A stretch of DNA of 44,349 nt from Cryomorphaceae bacterium (GTDB lineage Bacteria; Bacteroidota; Bacteroidia; Flavobacteriales; Schleiferiaceae), in assembly GCA_003566715.1 (NCBI GenBank), contig PXCF01000038.1:1-44349 (forward strand), in the 5' to 3' direction. The notes beneath the pieces were generated by a model. That model saw only the letters and a list, made by a program, of their open reading frames with translations, did not search any database and was not told the DNA's origin. Of the stretch, positions 1,343 through 44,349 are shown one piece after another. The position numbers and the translations under genes are program-made. Position 1 is the stretch's first letter. The number at the start of each line of letters is the position of its first letter.

Positions 1343-1464
1343 GTGGCTAGGCTAGAAAGTTTGAGAGCAAGGCTTACGAAATCTGAAAAAGCGCAGCTTA
1401 CACGACGTAAATGAGCATTTTTCAGATGAGCATAACGAAGCTATCGGACTTTATAGACAGCCAC
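1343..1464. repeat. Dispersed structured repeat, copy 1
   Basis: This 122-bp element is two nested inverted repeats. The outer arms begin GTGGCT...CTAGAAAGT and end ACTTTATAGAC AGCCAC. The inner arms ATCTGAAAAA/TTTTTCAGAT enclose a TTAC-ACGAC-GTAA tip. Copies 2 and 3 in the same orientation are at 3388-3507 and 15745-15862. The element starts one base after the folB stop codon as read on the minus strand. Confidence 0.85.
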
Positions 1465-3342: not shown

Positions 3343-3387
3343 GTAAATTTTTTATATAAGGTTACAGTCTATGCTTTGTTTTACTAA

Positions 3388-3507
3388 TGACTGATCTAGA
3401 ATGTTCGAGAGCAAGGCTTGCGAAATTTGAAAAAGCGCAGTTTACACGAAGTAAATGAGCATTTTTCAAATGAGCATAACGCAACTATCGGACATTACAG
3501 GCAGTCA
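3388..3507. repeat. Dispersed structured repeat, copy 2
   Basis: This is the second member of the family, in the same orientation as copy 1. Outer arms start TGACTG...AGAATGT and end ACATTACAGGCAGTCA. Inner arms are ATTTGAAAAA/TTTTTCAAAT around TTTAC-ACGAA-GTAAA. Compared with copy 1, changes in one arm are matched in the other: ATCTG/CAGAT becomes ATTTG/CAAAT, and AAAGT/ACTTT becomes AATGT/ACATT. It occupies most of the gap between gltX and the divergent plus-strand gene at 3653. Confidence 0.85.
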
Positions 3508-3545
3508 CCGCATAGAAAATGTTATAATTCTTGAAAAATTGGTGG

Positions 3546-3553: not shown

Positions 3554-3652
3554 CAAGTTCTTGAATAGTATTACCGTTTTCAAACAAAAAATCCCCATCT
3601 TTGTCAATTGGTTGCGGACATTTTTAAATTCGTCCGTCCAAGACATCCGAAT

Positions 3653-6600
3653 ATGACCGAAGCGCTGTTACAAATACATCGACGAATAGACGACTTCATC
3701 GCCCGTTTTTACAAACGAAAAGCGATGGAGGGCTTGGTGCTTTCGGTGATTTCTGCACTCGCGGGATTTCTCATCATGGGGGTCATCGAATACCTCACGT
3801 GGAGTTCTTCCTCGGTGCGTTTTTGGCTTTGGATATCCTATTTATTGGTGGTGCTGGGTATATTCGCTTGGCGCGTCGTCATGCCTTTCATGCAGTCGAT
3901 GGGATGGGTTACACGCATGGACAGGCGCACAGCCGCAATGTTGCTCACCGCCGAATTACCGGAAATGCGCGACCAGTTGATCAATGTGCTGGACTTGGGA
4001 AATGTCAAGGGCGGTGAATTGCTGATCGCAGCGATTGAGCAAAAGTCGGAGAAACTGGCCACTCTGTCTTTCGTTAAGGCCGTGCGCAAGGAACAACTCA
4101 TGCGCTTCTTAAAAATCAACGCCGCGGTGATTGCCGTGTGGGCGCTGTTGCTCTTGTTTGATTTCGGACAGGCCCTATTGCAATCGGGAACGCGTGTGGT
4201 CAATTACAGTACCCAGTATGAGCGTCCGGCGCCTTTTCAGTGGATTTGGGAAAACAGCGACGTGCAGGTCAAGCACAACGATGCCGTGGAACTCATTTTT
4301 GACACCGAGGGTGACGTAGCGCCGGAAAGTGGTCACATCACCATGAATGGACAGCGCTTTCCTCTACAGCGCAGTCAGGGGCGCTTTGTGTTTGAATTGC
4401 CGCGGGTTAAAGACGCGATTCATTTCAGTGTCCATGCGGCCGGTGTGTCTTCGAAGAATTTCACCTTAACACCCTTGTATTATCCGAGCATCGTCGATAT
4501 CGAGGTGGAGATTGTGCCGCCTAGCTATACCGGCTTGTCGGCCTCTGTGTTTCGCAGCGGAAATGTCACCGTGCCCAAGGGCAGTGTGGTAAAGTGGAAC
4601 GTGCAAACCCGACATACCGATCATGTTTTGATGGAAGCCGATGAACAGCGTGATTCGCTGCATCGCGACGGCAATCGTTTTGTATTTAAAAGACAGGTGC
4701 AGGACGCTATGGACTACACCTTGTTTTTACAAAATCCCGACCAAGACATCGAAGTGAATCAGCCCTATGCCATCAACGTTATCGCCGATAGAATGCCGGA
4801 GTTGGATTTGGAGTGGCTGACCGACGAAGGCGATTTGGACTTTGTGTCAGCATACGGCAGCGCTTCCGACGACTACGGTATCCGCGTGGTAAAGCTCGAG
4901 TACAACGTTGGTGATGGCTTTAAGACCTTAGAGCAAGTAGCAGGAAACGCCCGCCGTCAGGTGCCCCTGCGTTTTACCATTAACCTCAAGGACGACGCCT
5001 TTCCCGAAGGCAAAGAAATTGTGCTGCGTGTGGCCGCTACCGACAACGACGCTTCGGGGGCAAAAACCACCTACAGTTCGACCTATACCACCAGAAAATT
5101 ATCCCGACAAGAACGGGAGGAAAAGCGCAAAGAAACCATTTCACAAAGTGGTGCGGCCGTGGAGAAATTTAACGAAGAACGCCGTCGCCAAAGAGAGGAG
5201 AGTCAGGCCATCATCGACAAGCGCAAGTCGGGCGACCCCATGCAGTTTAAAGACGAAGAGCAATTGAAAGACCTGATGAAGGAGCAAGCAAAGAGCTTGG
5301 ACGAAACCATCGAGGCGCTGGAAGAGTTGCAGCGCGAGTTGGAGCAGTCGGACGACCCGCAAGACCAAGAGATGGCCGAGCGTGTGGAGGAGCAGAAGAG
5401 CGAACTGGAAAAACTGAGAGACGAAATCCGAGATTTGCTCGAAAAAAACAAACCGGAGGAGTTGCTGAAAAAAGCCGAAGAGATTCAGCAAAAAATGGAT
5501 GAGCGTCAGCGCGAGCTAAAGACCGAGCAATTGCAAATGGAGCAGATGAACAACACCCGTGACATGCTTCAAAGCATTGATGAGTTGCGACAAATGGCCG
5601 AAGAGCTTGGCGAGATGGATATGGACGACACGGAATCGGTTGAAAAATTGGAAGAAAAATTTGAGGAATGGGAGAAAATGGCCGACGATGCCATGGAGAA
5701 GTTTCCCGAGATGAAAGACAAGCTCAAAGAGGAGGGGTTTGAAGAAAAGAAGAAGGAGATTAAGGACAAGATTAAGGAGGGTAAAGACGGCGATGATTCG
5801 AAGAAAAAAGACGACGCCCGTGACGACGCCAAGAAGAAAATGGATAAGATGCAGAGCGAGATGATGGACGCGTTTATGGAAACACAGCAGTCGGCCGCCA
5901 AGGAAAACATGGAGCACTTGCGTCAGTTGCTGAAAAATCTCTTGGTGTTGTCTTTTGAGCAAGAAGGTATTTCTGAGGATGCCTCTGGTTTGCGTGCCGA
6001 AGCATCCTTGCTCAAAGGCATTGTGGAACGCCAGCAGAAAATGCAATTGGCCAGCGAGCACGTGATTGACAGCTTGTACGCATTGGCCGAGCGCGTACCG
6101 GAAATCGACGCCAAGGTGCGCAACGAAGCCCGTGAAATGATCAACAACATGGAGCGCGGTAAGTCGGAATTACAAAACGATAAGTTGGGTAAGTTTGGCG
6201 GCCACATCAAAGGCGCCATGAAGTCGTCTAATGAGCTGGCGTTGTTGCTGGACGCCATTTTGCAGCAAATGATGCAGGACATGAGCAACGACATGCCCGG
6301 ACAGCAAAACTGCCAAAAACCGGGAGATGGTCAGCCCGACATCAGTGAACTGCTCGACGAGCAAAAGGGCATGGGCGAGGAAATGGGGCAAGATGAAGAA
6401 GGTTCACAAGACGGCGATGGTGCAGAAAAAGGACAAGATCAACAAAGTGGTGAATCGGGAGAAAGTGGCGATGACGCCAAAGAGCAAGCCGAAGCTGCTC
6501 GCCGATTGCAAATGATGCAGCGACAAGAACAAATCCGGCGCAACCTTTCGCGCATCATGGAAGAAAAAGGCAAGGGCGATCAAGGCAAAGAGTTGGAAGA

Positions 6601-6889
6601 ACTGATGGAAGAGCAGGAGCGTGACATCATTTTGGGTAAATCGCGTAGGGAGTTGCTCGAACGCCAGCGCGAAATAGAAATACGCTTACTCGAACTGGAA
6701 AGCGCCATGCGCAAGCAAGATGAAGACGATCAGCGCGAAGCGGAAACCGCCGAAGAAGAACGCATCATGCCGCGCAATCCCCATGAGGAATACCTGCGCA
6801 AGAAAATGGAAGAAATCGAACGCATTCAACGATCGCCGTTTCGTTTTACGCCTTATTATGAGGAAAAGAGAAGGCGGTTGGTACAGTGA
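3653..6889 (+). CDS. DUF4175-like membrane-anchored coiled-coil protein
   Basis: This 1078-residue protein resembles the large DUF4175 family found in Bacteroidota, whose function is not established. The N-terminus has two membrane spans (about residues 28-48 and 54-75) and a third near 150-170. A probable extracytoplasmic beta-rich region (about 190-480) follows. The last 600 residues are extremely rich in E, K, Q, D and M and should form long helical coiled coils, including runs such as DKIKEGKDGDDSKKKDD and an E/Q/G/D-rich acidic linker near 900-950. The open frame extends 15 codons further up to a TTG at 3608. The ATG at 3653 is preferred because homologue-like sequence begins just after it. 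No terminator is evident downstream. The gene stands alone on its strand. Confidence 0.75.
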   Translation: MTEALLQIHRRIDDFIARFYKRKAMEGLVLSVISALAGFLIMGVIEYLTWSSSSVRFWLWISYLLVVLGIFAWRVVMPFMQSMGWVTRMDRRTAAMLLTAELPEMRDQLINVLDLGNVKGGELLIAAIEQKSEKLATLSFVKAVRKEQLMRFLKINAAVIAVWALLLLFDFGQALLQSGTRVVNYSTQYERPAPFQWIWENSDVQVKHNDAVELIFDTEGDVAPESGHITMNGQRFPLQRSQGRFVFELPRVKDAIHFSVHAAGVSSKNFTLTPLYYPSIVDIEVEIVPPSYTGLSASVFRSGNVTVPKGSVVKWNVQTRHTDHVLMEADEQRDSLHRDGNRFVFKRQVQDAMDYTLFLQNPDQDIEVNQPYAINVIADRMPELDLEWLTDEGDLDFVSAYGSASDDYGIRVVKLEYNVGDGFKTLEQVAGNARRQVPLRFTINLKDDAFPEGKEIVLRVAATDNDASGAKTTYSSTYTTRKLSRQEREEKRKETISQSGAAVEKFNEERRRQREESQAIIDKRKSGDPMQFKDEEQLKDLMKEQAKSLDETIEALEELQRELEQSDDPQDQEMAERVEEQKSELEKLRDEIRDLLEKNKPEELLKKAEEIQQKMDERQRELKTEQLQMEQMNNTRDMLQSIDELRQMAEELGEMDMDDTESVEKLEEKFEEWEKMADDAMEKFPEMKDKLKEEGFEEKKKEIKDKIKEGKDGDDSKKKDDARDDAKKKMDKMQSEMMDAFMETQQSAAKENMEHLRQLLKNLLVLSFEQEGISEDASGLRAEASLLKGIVERQQKMQLASEHVIDSLYALAERVPEIDAKVRNEAREMINNMERGKSELQNDKLGKFGGHIKGAMKSSNELALLLDAILQQMMQDMSNDMPGQQNCQKPGDGQPDISELLDEQKGMGEEMGQDEEGSQDGDGAEKGQDQQSGESGESGDDAKEQAEAARRLQMMQRQEQIRRNLSRIMEEKGKGDQGKELEELMEEQERDIILGKSRRELLERQREIEIRLLELESAMRKQDEDDQREAETAEEERIMPRNPHEEYLRKKMEEIERIQRSPFRFTPYYEEKRRRLVQ

Positions 6890-7025
6890 GATAATTAATA
6901 ATTATTCACGAGGGGTTATAAAAAATCCGTCTTTTTATACATGGCCATTTTGTTGGTTATGAGTAATGAGTGATGAGTGGATGACGAATAGTTGTATAAG
7001 CCTTGTTGATTTATATACATGGCCA

Positions 7026-7199
7026 TTGTAGAGACGCACGGCCGTGCGTCTTTATTTCACCACATTTTTTCACCACATAGGCACATAGAATCACATAGAA
7101 TTGAGACGGAATGTTGCTACGTGTTAAAATAAGAACACATAGGTTAGTCGCCTTTGGCGACTGGGGAGCAGCCTACGTTATTTGATTTTGGGTTACGCA
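7026..7199. repeat. Long direct repeat, copy A
   Basis: This block matches 44185-44349 almost base for base in the same orientation. Only three differences are seen: one C-to-A change in the palindrome, one base in a T run, and an extra 10-bp CACATAGAAT unit here. It contains a perfect 20-bp palindrome (7032-7051, AGACGCACGG and its complement) and the hairpin AGTCGCC-TTT-GGCGACT (7146-7162). The palindrome type, GAGACGCACGGCCGTGCGTC, is of a kind I associate with dispersed repeats in Bacteroidota and cyanobacteria. Confidence 0.9.
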
Positions 7200-15700: not shown

Positions 15701-15744
15701 TATTTTTGTGAGCATAATTTTGCTTACATATTTATATCCCATAT

Positions 15745-15862
15745 GTCTGTTCTATAAAGTTCGAGACCAAGCTTGCGAACATCAAAAATAAAGAAGTTTA
15801 CAAAGGTAAATGACTTTATTTTGGATTGAGTATAACGGAGTTATCGGGCTTTATAGATAGAC
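15745..15862. repeat. Dispersed structured repeat, copy 3
   Basis: This is the most divergent member, in the same orientation as copies 1 and 2. Outer arms CTATAAAGTTCGAG / TATCGGGCTTTATAG are kept. The inner arms are of different sequence (ATCAAAAATAAAG / CTTTATTTTGGAT, one mismatch) but fold the same way around TTTAC-AAAG-GTAAA. The unpaired flanks GCAAG..CTTGCGAA and GAGTATAACG resemble the other copies. It lies between convergent genes and ends four bases before the TAG stop codon (15867-15869) of the minus-strand lipoprotein gene. Confidence 0.8.
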
Positions 15863-15866
15863 TTAT

Positions 15867-17267
15867 CTACCAGAATGCTTTTCGACGCATATCGGGATAA
15901 ATCTCCCGCTGCACATCGCGAACGGCGCGATTGAAGGTTTCTCTGGCTGCGCGTTCTTCATCCAGTTGCACGCCGCGCACGCCATCTATTTGTCGGGAGT
16001 AAATGACTTGTCCGGAGAACTGCTCCAGTAGTTCTATCGTAAAATCCAGGTAGGCTGTAACGAACTGTGTCGATTCTCCGCGACCATTGCCAGCACGTGT
16101 TCTTGCGCGGATATCTAAAATATAGTCCGAACCGGCAGCGGTTCTGTTGACTTCAAAGCCGTCTTTTCGCAGTTCACCGGAGAATGCTGATGCGAGCGGA
16201 TTGCCATCCATGAGTTCATTTTGGAGACGTTCTTCTGAACGAACAAATACTCTAGGGGGAATAATATCGATGGTGGTAGATGCAGAAGGTTCGCGAATTT
16301 GCTCTATCAACGATATGATTAGGGGGCTGTTACTAGATTCTTTGGCCAGTTCTACCAAATCAACGCGCATATGGAGTTGTTCCTGACTGCGTTGACTGAT
16401 GACTCTATCCCAAGAAAAATACACATGCCCATTTCTGTCGGTGGTGCCTCTTTCGCTGTGGTTACGCCTTTCGGTATATGAGAGCTGACAAGGCAGATTG
16501 GTTAGAGGTTGGCGTCCGTGGTTTACTGTAAAAAAGGCCGTAGGTCCTTCCCAAAAGCTGGAGGGAACGCGTATGGCTTGGCCTCGTTTGATTTGTAATA
16601 CATGCTGAGATGGCGTAACGGTCCACTCATCAACGTGTCTTCTAAGGGCGTTCATTAGGTGGTTCGCCAAGAAAATTCTTTCACCATCAACTTCGGTAGA
16701 AAGTGGTTCTCCGAGATATTCCTTTACCGCATCAAGAGCAGAAACGTAACCGATAAATCGCCGCAAAGGATCGGCTTCTTTTTCTGCCCGTTGCCACTGT
16801 AACACGGACATTTCGGTGGCTTTATCGCGTTTTTCTCTTTGAATCCGGGCGTGTTCGGATTTAGACAAGCGATAGAAGTTCCATATTTCGCGTTCATTTT
16901 CCCATACACCTACCAACTCGTAGCCTTCCAGTGAGGCATTGGTAGAGCTCATGATGGTTGATTTGTACGTATCGCGCACACGTTGGTTGCTTTCTGATTG
17001 GAAAAGCAGTGACTGTGCAGAGATCTCAACCGATATTTCACCCGCCAAATCATTTAAGGCGTTGTTGCGCGCCATTTGTGCGTGGTCGTCTCTACCGTGA
17101 ATTTTGTAAGCAAAACCCACCCCGTGAAAATAGCCGGGCGATATGGGCTTCTGTCGTACCCAAGATGGACGAGGGTTGTCGTCAACCATGTTTTTTTCCG
17201 AAATGCTTTTAGAAGAGCCACAACCAAACAGGAGAAAAGCCAATAAAAGTCTGGAAATGATGTGCAT
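15867..17267 (-). CDS. LPP20-like lipoprotein
   Basis: This 466-residue protein has a lipoprotein signal with lipobox LLFGC, Cys16 being the predicted lipidated residue, so it should sit on the periplasmic face of a membrane, probably the outer one. The region after it (about 30-130; RPSWVRQKP, YFHGVGFAYKI, AQMARNNALNDLAGEISVEI) fits the LPP20/FlgP-like fold. A central beta domain (about 210-300) and a C-terminal domain (about 310-455) with an SxQxxD-like repeat of secretory-pathway type follow, and their families are not recognised. Its ATG overlaps the stop of the upstream CsgG-like gene (TAATG), so the two are translationally coupled and likely partners. The function is unknown. Confidence 0.68.
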   Translation of the reverse strand: MHIISRLLLAFLLFGCGSSKSISEKNMVDDNPRPSWVRQKPISPGYFHGVGFAYKIHGRDDHAQMARNNALNDLAGEISVEISAQSLLFQSESNQRVRDTYKSTIMSSTNASLEGYELVGVWENEREIWNFYRLSKSEHARIQREKRDKATEMSVLQWQRAEKEADPLRRFIGYVSALDAVKEYLGEPLSTEVDGERIFLANHLMNALRRHVDEWTVTPSQHVLQIKRGQAIRVPSSFWEGPTAFFTVNHGRQPLTNLPCQLSYTERRNHSERGTTDRNGHVYFSWDRVISQRSQEQLHMRVDLVELAKESSNSPLIISLIEQIREPSASTTIDIIPPRVFVRSEERLQNELMDGNPLASAFSGELRKDGFEVNRTAAGSDYILDIRARTRAGNGRGESTQFVTAYLDFTIELLEQFSGQVIYSRQIDGVRGVQLDEERAARETFNRAVRDVQREIYPDMRRKAFW

Positions 17268-44127: not shown

Positions 44128-44184
44128 TTTTAGATATATAATTTTTTGTTGGTATGTGCGTTTTCGTTTTTTTTTAAAGCGCCT

Positions 44185-44349
44185 TTGTAGAGACGCACGG
44201 CAGTGCGTCTTTATTTCACCACATTTTTTTCACCACATAGGCACATAGAATTGAGACGGAATGTTGCTACGTGTTAAAATAAGAACACATAGGTTAGTCG
44301 CCTTTGGCGACTGGGGAGCAGCCTACGTTATTTGATTTTGGGTTACGCA
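44185..44349. repeat. Long direct repeat, copy B (truncated by window end)
   Basis: This is the same sequence and orientation as 7026-7199, nearly identical, and still matching at the last base of the window. It carries the imperfect form of the palindrome (GCACGGCAGTGC, one change) and the AGTCGCC-TTT-GGCGACT hairpin at 44296-44312. No gene is seen in 44128-44349. Confidence 0.9.

Follow-up and report, generated by a model that had tools for sequence, protein, structure and literature searches.

A strand-specific, covarying hairpin element with inverted termini, often placed at stop codons in Cryomorphaceae genomes

The contig PXCF01000038.1 of a Cryomorphaceae bacterium, analysed over its whole length of 44,349 nt (the window), carries a repeat of about 120 bp whose copies differ in the sequence of their stems, which raises the question of what this repeat is and why its arms stay complementary. 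An earlier note had considered a non-autonomous mobile element, similar to REP sequences with RAYT transposases, or a structured RNA. The three copies it had described were all present on the plus strand at the places given, with hairpin cores at 1343-1465 (copy 1; R1 match of 123.4 bits), 3387-3509 (copy 2; 122.3 bits) and 15743-15865 (copy 3; 109.5 bits), and the quoted stem differences are in the sequence. The left boundary had been set too short, however: the flanks of about 140 listed copies revealed an element extending some 21 nt further to the left. Against dinucleotide shuffles, the folding of copies 1, 2 and 3 gave z values of -5.8, -6.6 and -6.8.

Two of the window copies meet the end of a gene. 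The right end of copy 1 abuts the stop codon (TAG, 1466-1468) of folB, encoding dihydroneopterin aldolase on the minus strand (1466-1822; NCBIfam TIGR00525, 89.8 bits, profile positions 2-113 of 116), with the natural C-terminus WKTTR* compared to WEEKR* and WEISR* in relatives. Copy 3 abuts with its right end the stop codon of an unnamed minus-strand gene of 466 amino acids (15867-17267) that had no NCBIfam match. Copy 2 is located away from a stop codon, between the divergent gltX and the gene at 3608-6889. Copies 1 and 2 were both missing from the orthologous contig of the related genome G004, where the locus of copy 1 is empty, and in G001 copy 2 survives as a middle-deleted remnant. Alignment to young copies placed a decayed outer left terminus of copy 1, the equivalent of GAGCYTGTCCATAAAGTCAAA, on the plus strand at 1322-1342, a weak assignment with 7 mismatches in 17 positions. 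The left termini of the window copies are decayed, so these copies are old. The window contains a second, unrelated repeat at 7010-7199 and 44169-44349, with 108 identical bp at 7092-7199 and 44242-44349 (the contig end); a TAGAGACGCACGGC palindrome precedes the identical stretch.

The family is larger than the three copies of the window. A DNA search of the 2.46-Mb source genome found 45 matching places, and a covariance model seeded with 24 copies of this genome listed 58 matches, among them reverse-strand echoes of the same palindromes; both results together indicate about 45 copies. The search of related genomes proposed in the earlier note placed the element in nine of 88 family genomes: all five of the own genus with roughly 10-46 matches apiece, three genomes from genus g3 and a single one from g7. 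The element was not found in the remaining 79 family genomes nor in 23 genomes from other families of the order. Named carriers are metagenome-assembled genomes (MAGs) of Cryomorphaceae or Flavobacteriales, and this distribution points to a narrow lineage as the source of the element. At the gathering score, Rfam 15 matched a tRNA alone within the window, and around copies 1 and 2 nothing relevant was obtained at E<=10. As far as our literature and database searches reach, the family is previously undescribed. Four copies (L003, L195, L052, L066) lie about 10-15 nt or less from tRNA genes.

The hairpin consists of an inner stem of 12-14 bp, flanked by two internal loops with 5'-GA-3' opposite 5'-GA-3' and topped by a GTTTAC-NNNN-GTAAAT hairpin. 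The sequence of the inner stem varies widely among copies, from AT-rich to GCAGCGCCTGAAG/CTTCAGGCGCTGC, and its pairing is nearly always kept; 392 Watson-Crick pairs were observed in the inner stem compared to 277 with partners shuffled among copies. The columns of the GA loops are invariant or nearly so, and a T.G mismatch at 19/106 is conserved to nearly the same extent. In 15 copies that align without gaps (45 pairs, 675 cells), 95.7% of the cells were paired, and sliding the partners by 1-3 columns reduced this value to 32-42%. Two-sided changes occurred at 19 of the 45 pairs (shuffled mean 9.4) and in 56 cells (shuffled mean 13.6), a count reached in none of 500 shuffles. The covariation of the stems, claimed in the earlier note from three copies, is very strong. 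An origin of the inner stem in the flanking DNA was rejected: the sole long matches were other copies nearby. More than half of the anchored copies carry a CCCCGATAGCTATCGGGG palindrome at the left of the inner loop, replacing the base of the left inner stem (L007, L008, L015, L019, L023, L026-L028 and many copies in G002 and G003), and a different, right-side insert, GCCCTAAAACCTTCGGTAAGGGCAG, is present in the G002 copies L164, L156, L165 and L166.

Covariation, GA loops and folding energies together support selection on structure, as the earlier note had proposed, and for one strand in particular. Of 99 copies, 93 folded better as the plus strand under RNA parameters and 97 under DNA parameters; shuffled sequences had a strand bias of the same sign that was smaller (-2.9 versus -8.0 kcal/mol). 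Tandem G.A mismatches stabilise the plus strand only, since the opposite strand would have TC opposite TC, and their conservation shows that the plus strand is the folded one. Counts of G.T versus A.C pairs were discarded as a sole criterion: a clear excess in 24 source-genome copies became weak with 99 copies (76 versus 92 over all outer pairs except 19/21; 76 versus 49 if the subfamily pair 7/32 is dropped as well), so that the strand claim rests on the folding energies and the GA loops. Pairing was maintained at orthologous sites as well. The orthologous copies L003 and L195 are three two-sided changes apart in the inner stem with pairing kept, to which gene conversion between copies could have contributed. 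A copy at the folE stop codon differs by at least two two-sided changes, involving both stems, among three g3 genomes. This copy (L085:785-1498, L086:1626-2342, L170), retained in three genomes of another genus, is a candidate for a domesticated copy.

The left end GAGCYTGTCCATAAAGTC mirrors the right end GTGGCTGTCTATAAAGTCC, whose inverted counterpart in the left extension is GAGCYTGTCCATAAAGTCAAA; the two ends read TAGAGCYTGTCCATAAAGTC and GGACTTTATAGACAGNCACTA, and the termini GAGCCTGTCCATAAAGTC and GTGGCTGTCTATAAAGTC form imperfect inverted repeats, alike at 15 of 18 consensus positions. With a core of 124-138 bp and the additional 21 bp or so, the full element measures about 145-160 bp and has no coding capacity. 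Outside both ends the sequence is TANNTA; of 68 readable copies, 50 had an identical NN left and right, compared to a mean of 16.6 and a maximum of 27 after shuffling. A target duplication of TA only, as for IS630-type elements, was rejected because it leaves the matching NN unexplained. Deviations of the outer TA from the consensus often affect a single side, so the duplication may be just the 2-bp NN; its length may be 2 bp or 6 bp. Some copies stand in direct tandem with a shared core, and comparison of orthologous sites reveals many that are broken or gone. The structural features of a MITE were found: short length, no coding sequence, high copy number, terminal inverted repeats and a target site duplication. 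Inverted termini, matching NN and loci without copies argue for a non-autonomous, MITE-like mobile element; with the copy number and the tandem copies, they support the mobile alternative of the earlier note.

A mobilising partner was sought by its ends. No autonomous element with the same ends was found in a non-exhaustive search of MAG assemblies, which often lose such elements, and matches to the terminal pattern were known, deleted or decayed copies. Loci of DDE_Tnp_1, rve and Y1 transposases (PF01609, PF00665, PF01797) were dismissed as they lacked the element's ends, DDE_Tnp_1_2 (PF13586) was absent, and tyrosine-recombinase loci had no convincing element copy. Phage contigs had no core match, and three terminal matches inside a phage coding gene were attributed to chance. 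An IS91-like transposase preceded by a tyrosine integrase (L295:679-2706, L298:278-2187, L292:1-375) was rejected as partner since neither ends nor sequence are shared; a fragment of its integrase is also situated at a contig end of the source genome. At L246 (G002:C160) an rve-type transposase apparently interrupts a short-chain dehydrogenase gene.

The placement of the copies is strongly biased. In 61 of 134 copies (46%) the right end is at most 3 nt from the stop codon of a gene on the opposite strand. These are 61 of the 86 copies whose right-hand gene runs toward the element; the genes are unrelated and belong to three genera. The left end is at a stop codon in only about nine copies, several of them with stops at both sides. 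Among noncoding or stop-overlapping TANNTA sites in sampled sequence, about 19 of about 278 (7%) touch a stop, which sets an expectation of about 3.5% per orientation; the observed placement exceeds it about 13-fold. This effect is large, although the ORFs were called mechanically and the copies are not independent. Partial copies consisting of the right end alone, without hairpin, are at stop codons, too. To reconstruct the empty sites in silico, the element and one TANNTA were removed at 44 sites with a recognisable left end. In 43 of them the position of the stop codon did not change: it lay within TANNTA, or its third base was regained on removal. The protein is left whole, as TAA or TAG is provided by the target itself or by the G at the end of the element. 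The open reading frames of icd, sucB, ftsY, queA, folE, sufB, gdhA, ettA and others extend into the final few positions of their NCBIfam profiles, so these ends are genuine; the sampled C-termini of abutted genes are intact, and together with the reconstructed sites this ruled out a truncation of genes by insertion. Full-text searches brought up no description of elements that insert on native stops with a single orientation, weak evidence given the incomplete coverage of the literature by these searches.

Several known systems share single traits with this element. In integrons, the attC site directly follows a stop codon; it is an imperfect palindrome whose antisense strand folds better. Our element resembles it in spirit, being likewise a palindrome after a stop codon with the better-folded strand antisense to the abutting gene. 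It differs in occurring as scattered single copies with a duplicated core, and an assignment to attC failed: RYYYAAC/GTTRRRY boxes were present in 0 of 99 copies, and no integron integrase exceeded the cut-off in nine genomes (best 136.6 versus 265 bits). RUP, BOX, Correia/NEMIS and ERIC-type MITEs are intergenic high-copy repeats of about 100-160 bp without a gene, forming a hairpin on the transcript strand, and in RUP and BOX the termini are inverted and the target is duplicated (PMC3049150, PMC10969869). Size, lack of a gene, high copy number, intergenic location and hairpin are common to these families and the present one, which differs by its unrelated sequence, by an inner stem that varies and covaries while the GA loops on either side are invariant and, in the literature compared, by its location within 3 nt of native stops in one orientation. 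MITEs near gene 3' ends have been described in reviews and family papers (PMC10969869, PMC5896051, PMC3049150). SPRITE of Streptococcus pneumoniae is a small repeat enriched near gene 3' ends; it has an 18-bp stem and a T-rich tract, and a target duplication is not established for it (PMC3049150); the element studied here shares this enrichment, but it is a long imperfect hairpin without a terminator-like match at copy 1. In Coxiella, QMITE1 and QMITE2 often overlap gene 3' ends by 2-50 bp, and QMITE2 has a GTAG REP (PMC5896051). These MITE-type repeats are also found at gene 3' ends, yet the variable overlap and the GTAG REP of QMITE2 set them apart.

The likeness to REP sequences suggested in the earlier note found no support. 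Dispersed palindromic repeats and Y1 genes in some related genomes would fit a REPIN moved by a RAYT transposase. However, no Y1 gene (PF01797) was present in the source genome, G001 or G004, RAYT loci elsewhere lacked the element's ends, the hairpin-foot tags were nearly missing (GTAG in 4 of 99 copies, CGTC in 0 of 99), and our element has inverted termini and a target duplication; this origin is largely refuted and has next to no probability left. It is very unlikely that the post-stop copies are domesticated hairpins, kept for ending or stabilising the upstream mRNA. The 61 copies directly after stop codons in one orientation would agree with such a role, and the terminator-like repeats of pneumococcus near gene 3' ends are a precedent (PMC3049150). 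Yet the strand that folds better is the antisense one of the abutting gene, so the mRNA would contain the worse-folding one, no intrinsic terminator (a short G+C-rich stem followed by a T run) was found at copy 1, and solitary right ends without hairpin are at stops as well. Moreover, pairing is kept equally in stop-abutting and other copies, a point against explaining the structure by a 3'-UTR function.

An ordinary DDE-type MITE whose arms match through template switching in the palindrome, copying arm to arm, would need no selection. Inverted termini and target duplication are in line with it, and quasi-palindrome correction is an established mutation process. Such correction would erase the nearly invariant mismatches (the two GA/GA loops and T.G at 19/106) and would favour neither strand; the mismatches persist, so it is disfavoured and we rate this account as quite unlikely. 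A structured RNA of the plus strand, e.g., an antisense or small RNA, spread by transposition and kept for a host function with the mobile ends as mere vehicle, would explain the strong covariation, the strand specificity and the compensation seen between orthologous copies, among them the one at the folE stop codon of three genomes. The missing Rfam match, the presence of copies in every gene context, the many copies broken or lost at orthologous sites and the lack of a promoter-like site at copy 1 oppose it, and we regard it as unlikely.

We consider it likely that the repeat is a non-autonomous, MITE-like element that inserts at native stop codons and depends for its movement on a recombinase or transposase from another source, with the folded plus strand as the presumed recognised form. 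Copies at stop codons have their right end toward the gene, and the protein is left intact. While the element moves, the recombinase would recognise the plus strand in its folded form, most likely in single-stranded DNA. Such a recognition would account for the equal pairing of copies at stop codons and in other places, and for the fact that it is not the mRNA of the abutting gene but the antisense strand that folds. Double-stranded DDE transposition typically comes with inverted termini and a target duplication and requires no hairpin, which counts against a single-stranded step. We infer that the strand folds either as single-stranded DNA in mobility or as RNA; in the most economical reading it is the element itself that has need of the folded plus strand, probably for moving.

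Small mobile repeats have a part in shaping the intergenic DNA of bacteria, and their avoidance of harm to genes is usually credited to selection after random insertion. The placement at stop codons in one orientation with an intact protein suggests a rule for choosing targets or else very sharp filtering. A conserved, strand-specific, covarying hairpin offers a direct means to judge whether movement uses a folded single strand as its substrate. That the element is an orientation-specific mobile hairpin which targets stop codons and is recognised as a folded single strand by a recombinase is a tentative proposal, possible rather than probable. If true, it would define a class in which a folded-strand substrate, as in attC or IS200-like systems, is combined with inverted termini and duplication of the target core, the stop codon being used as a safe landing site.
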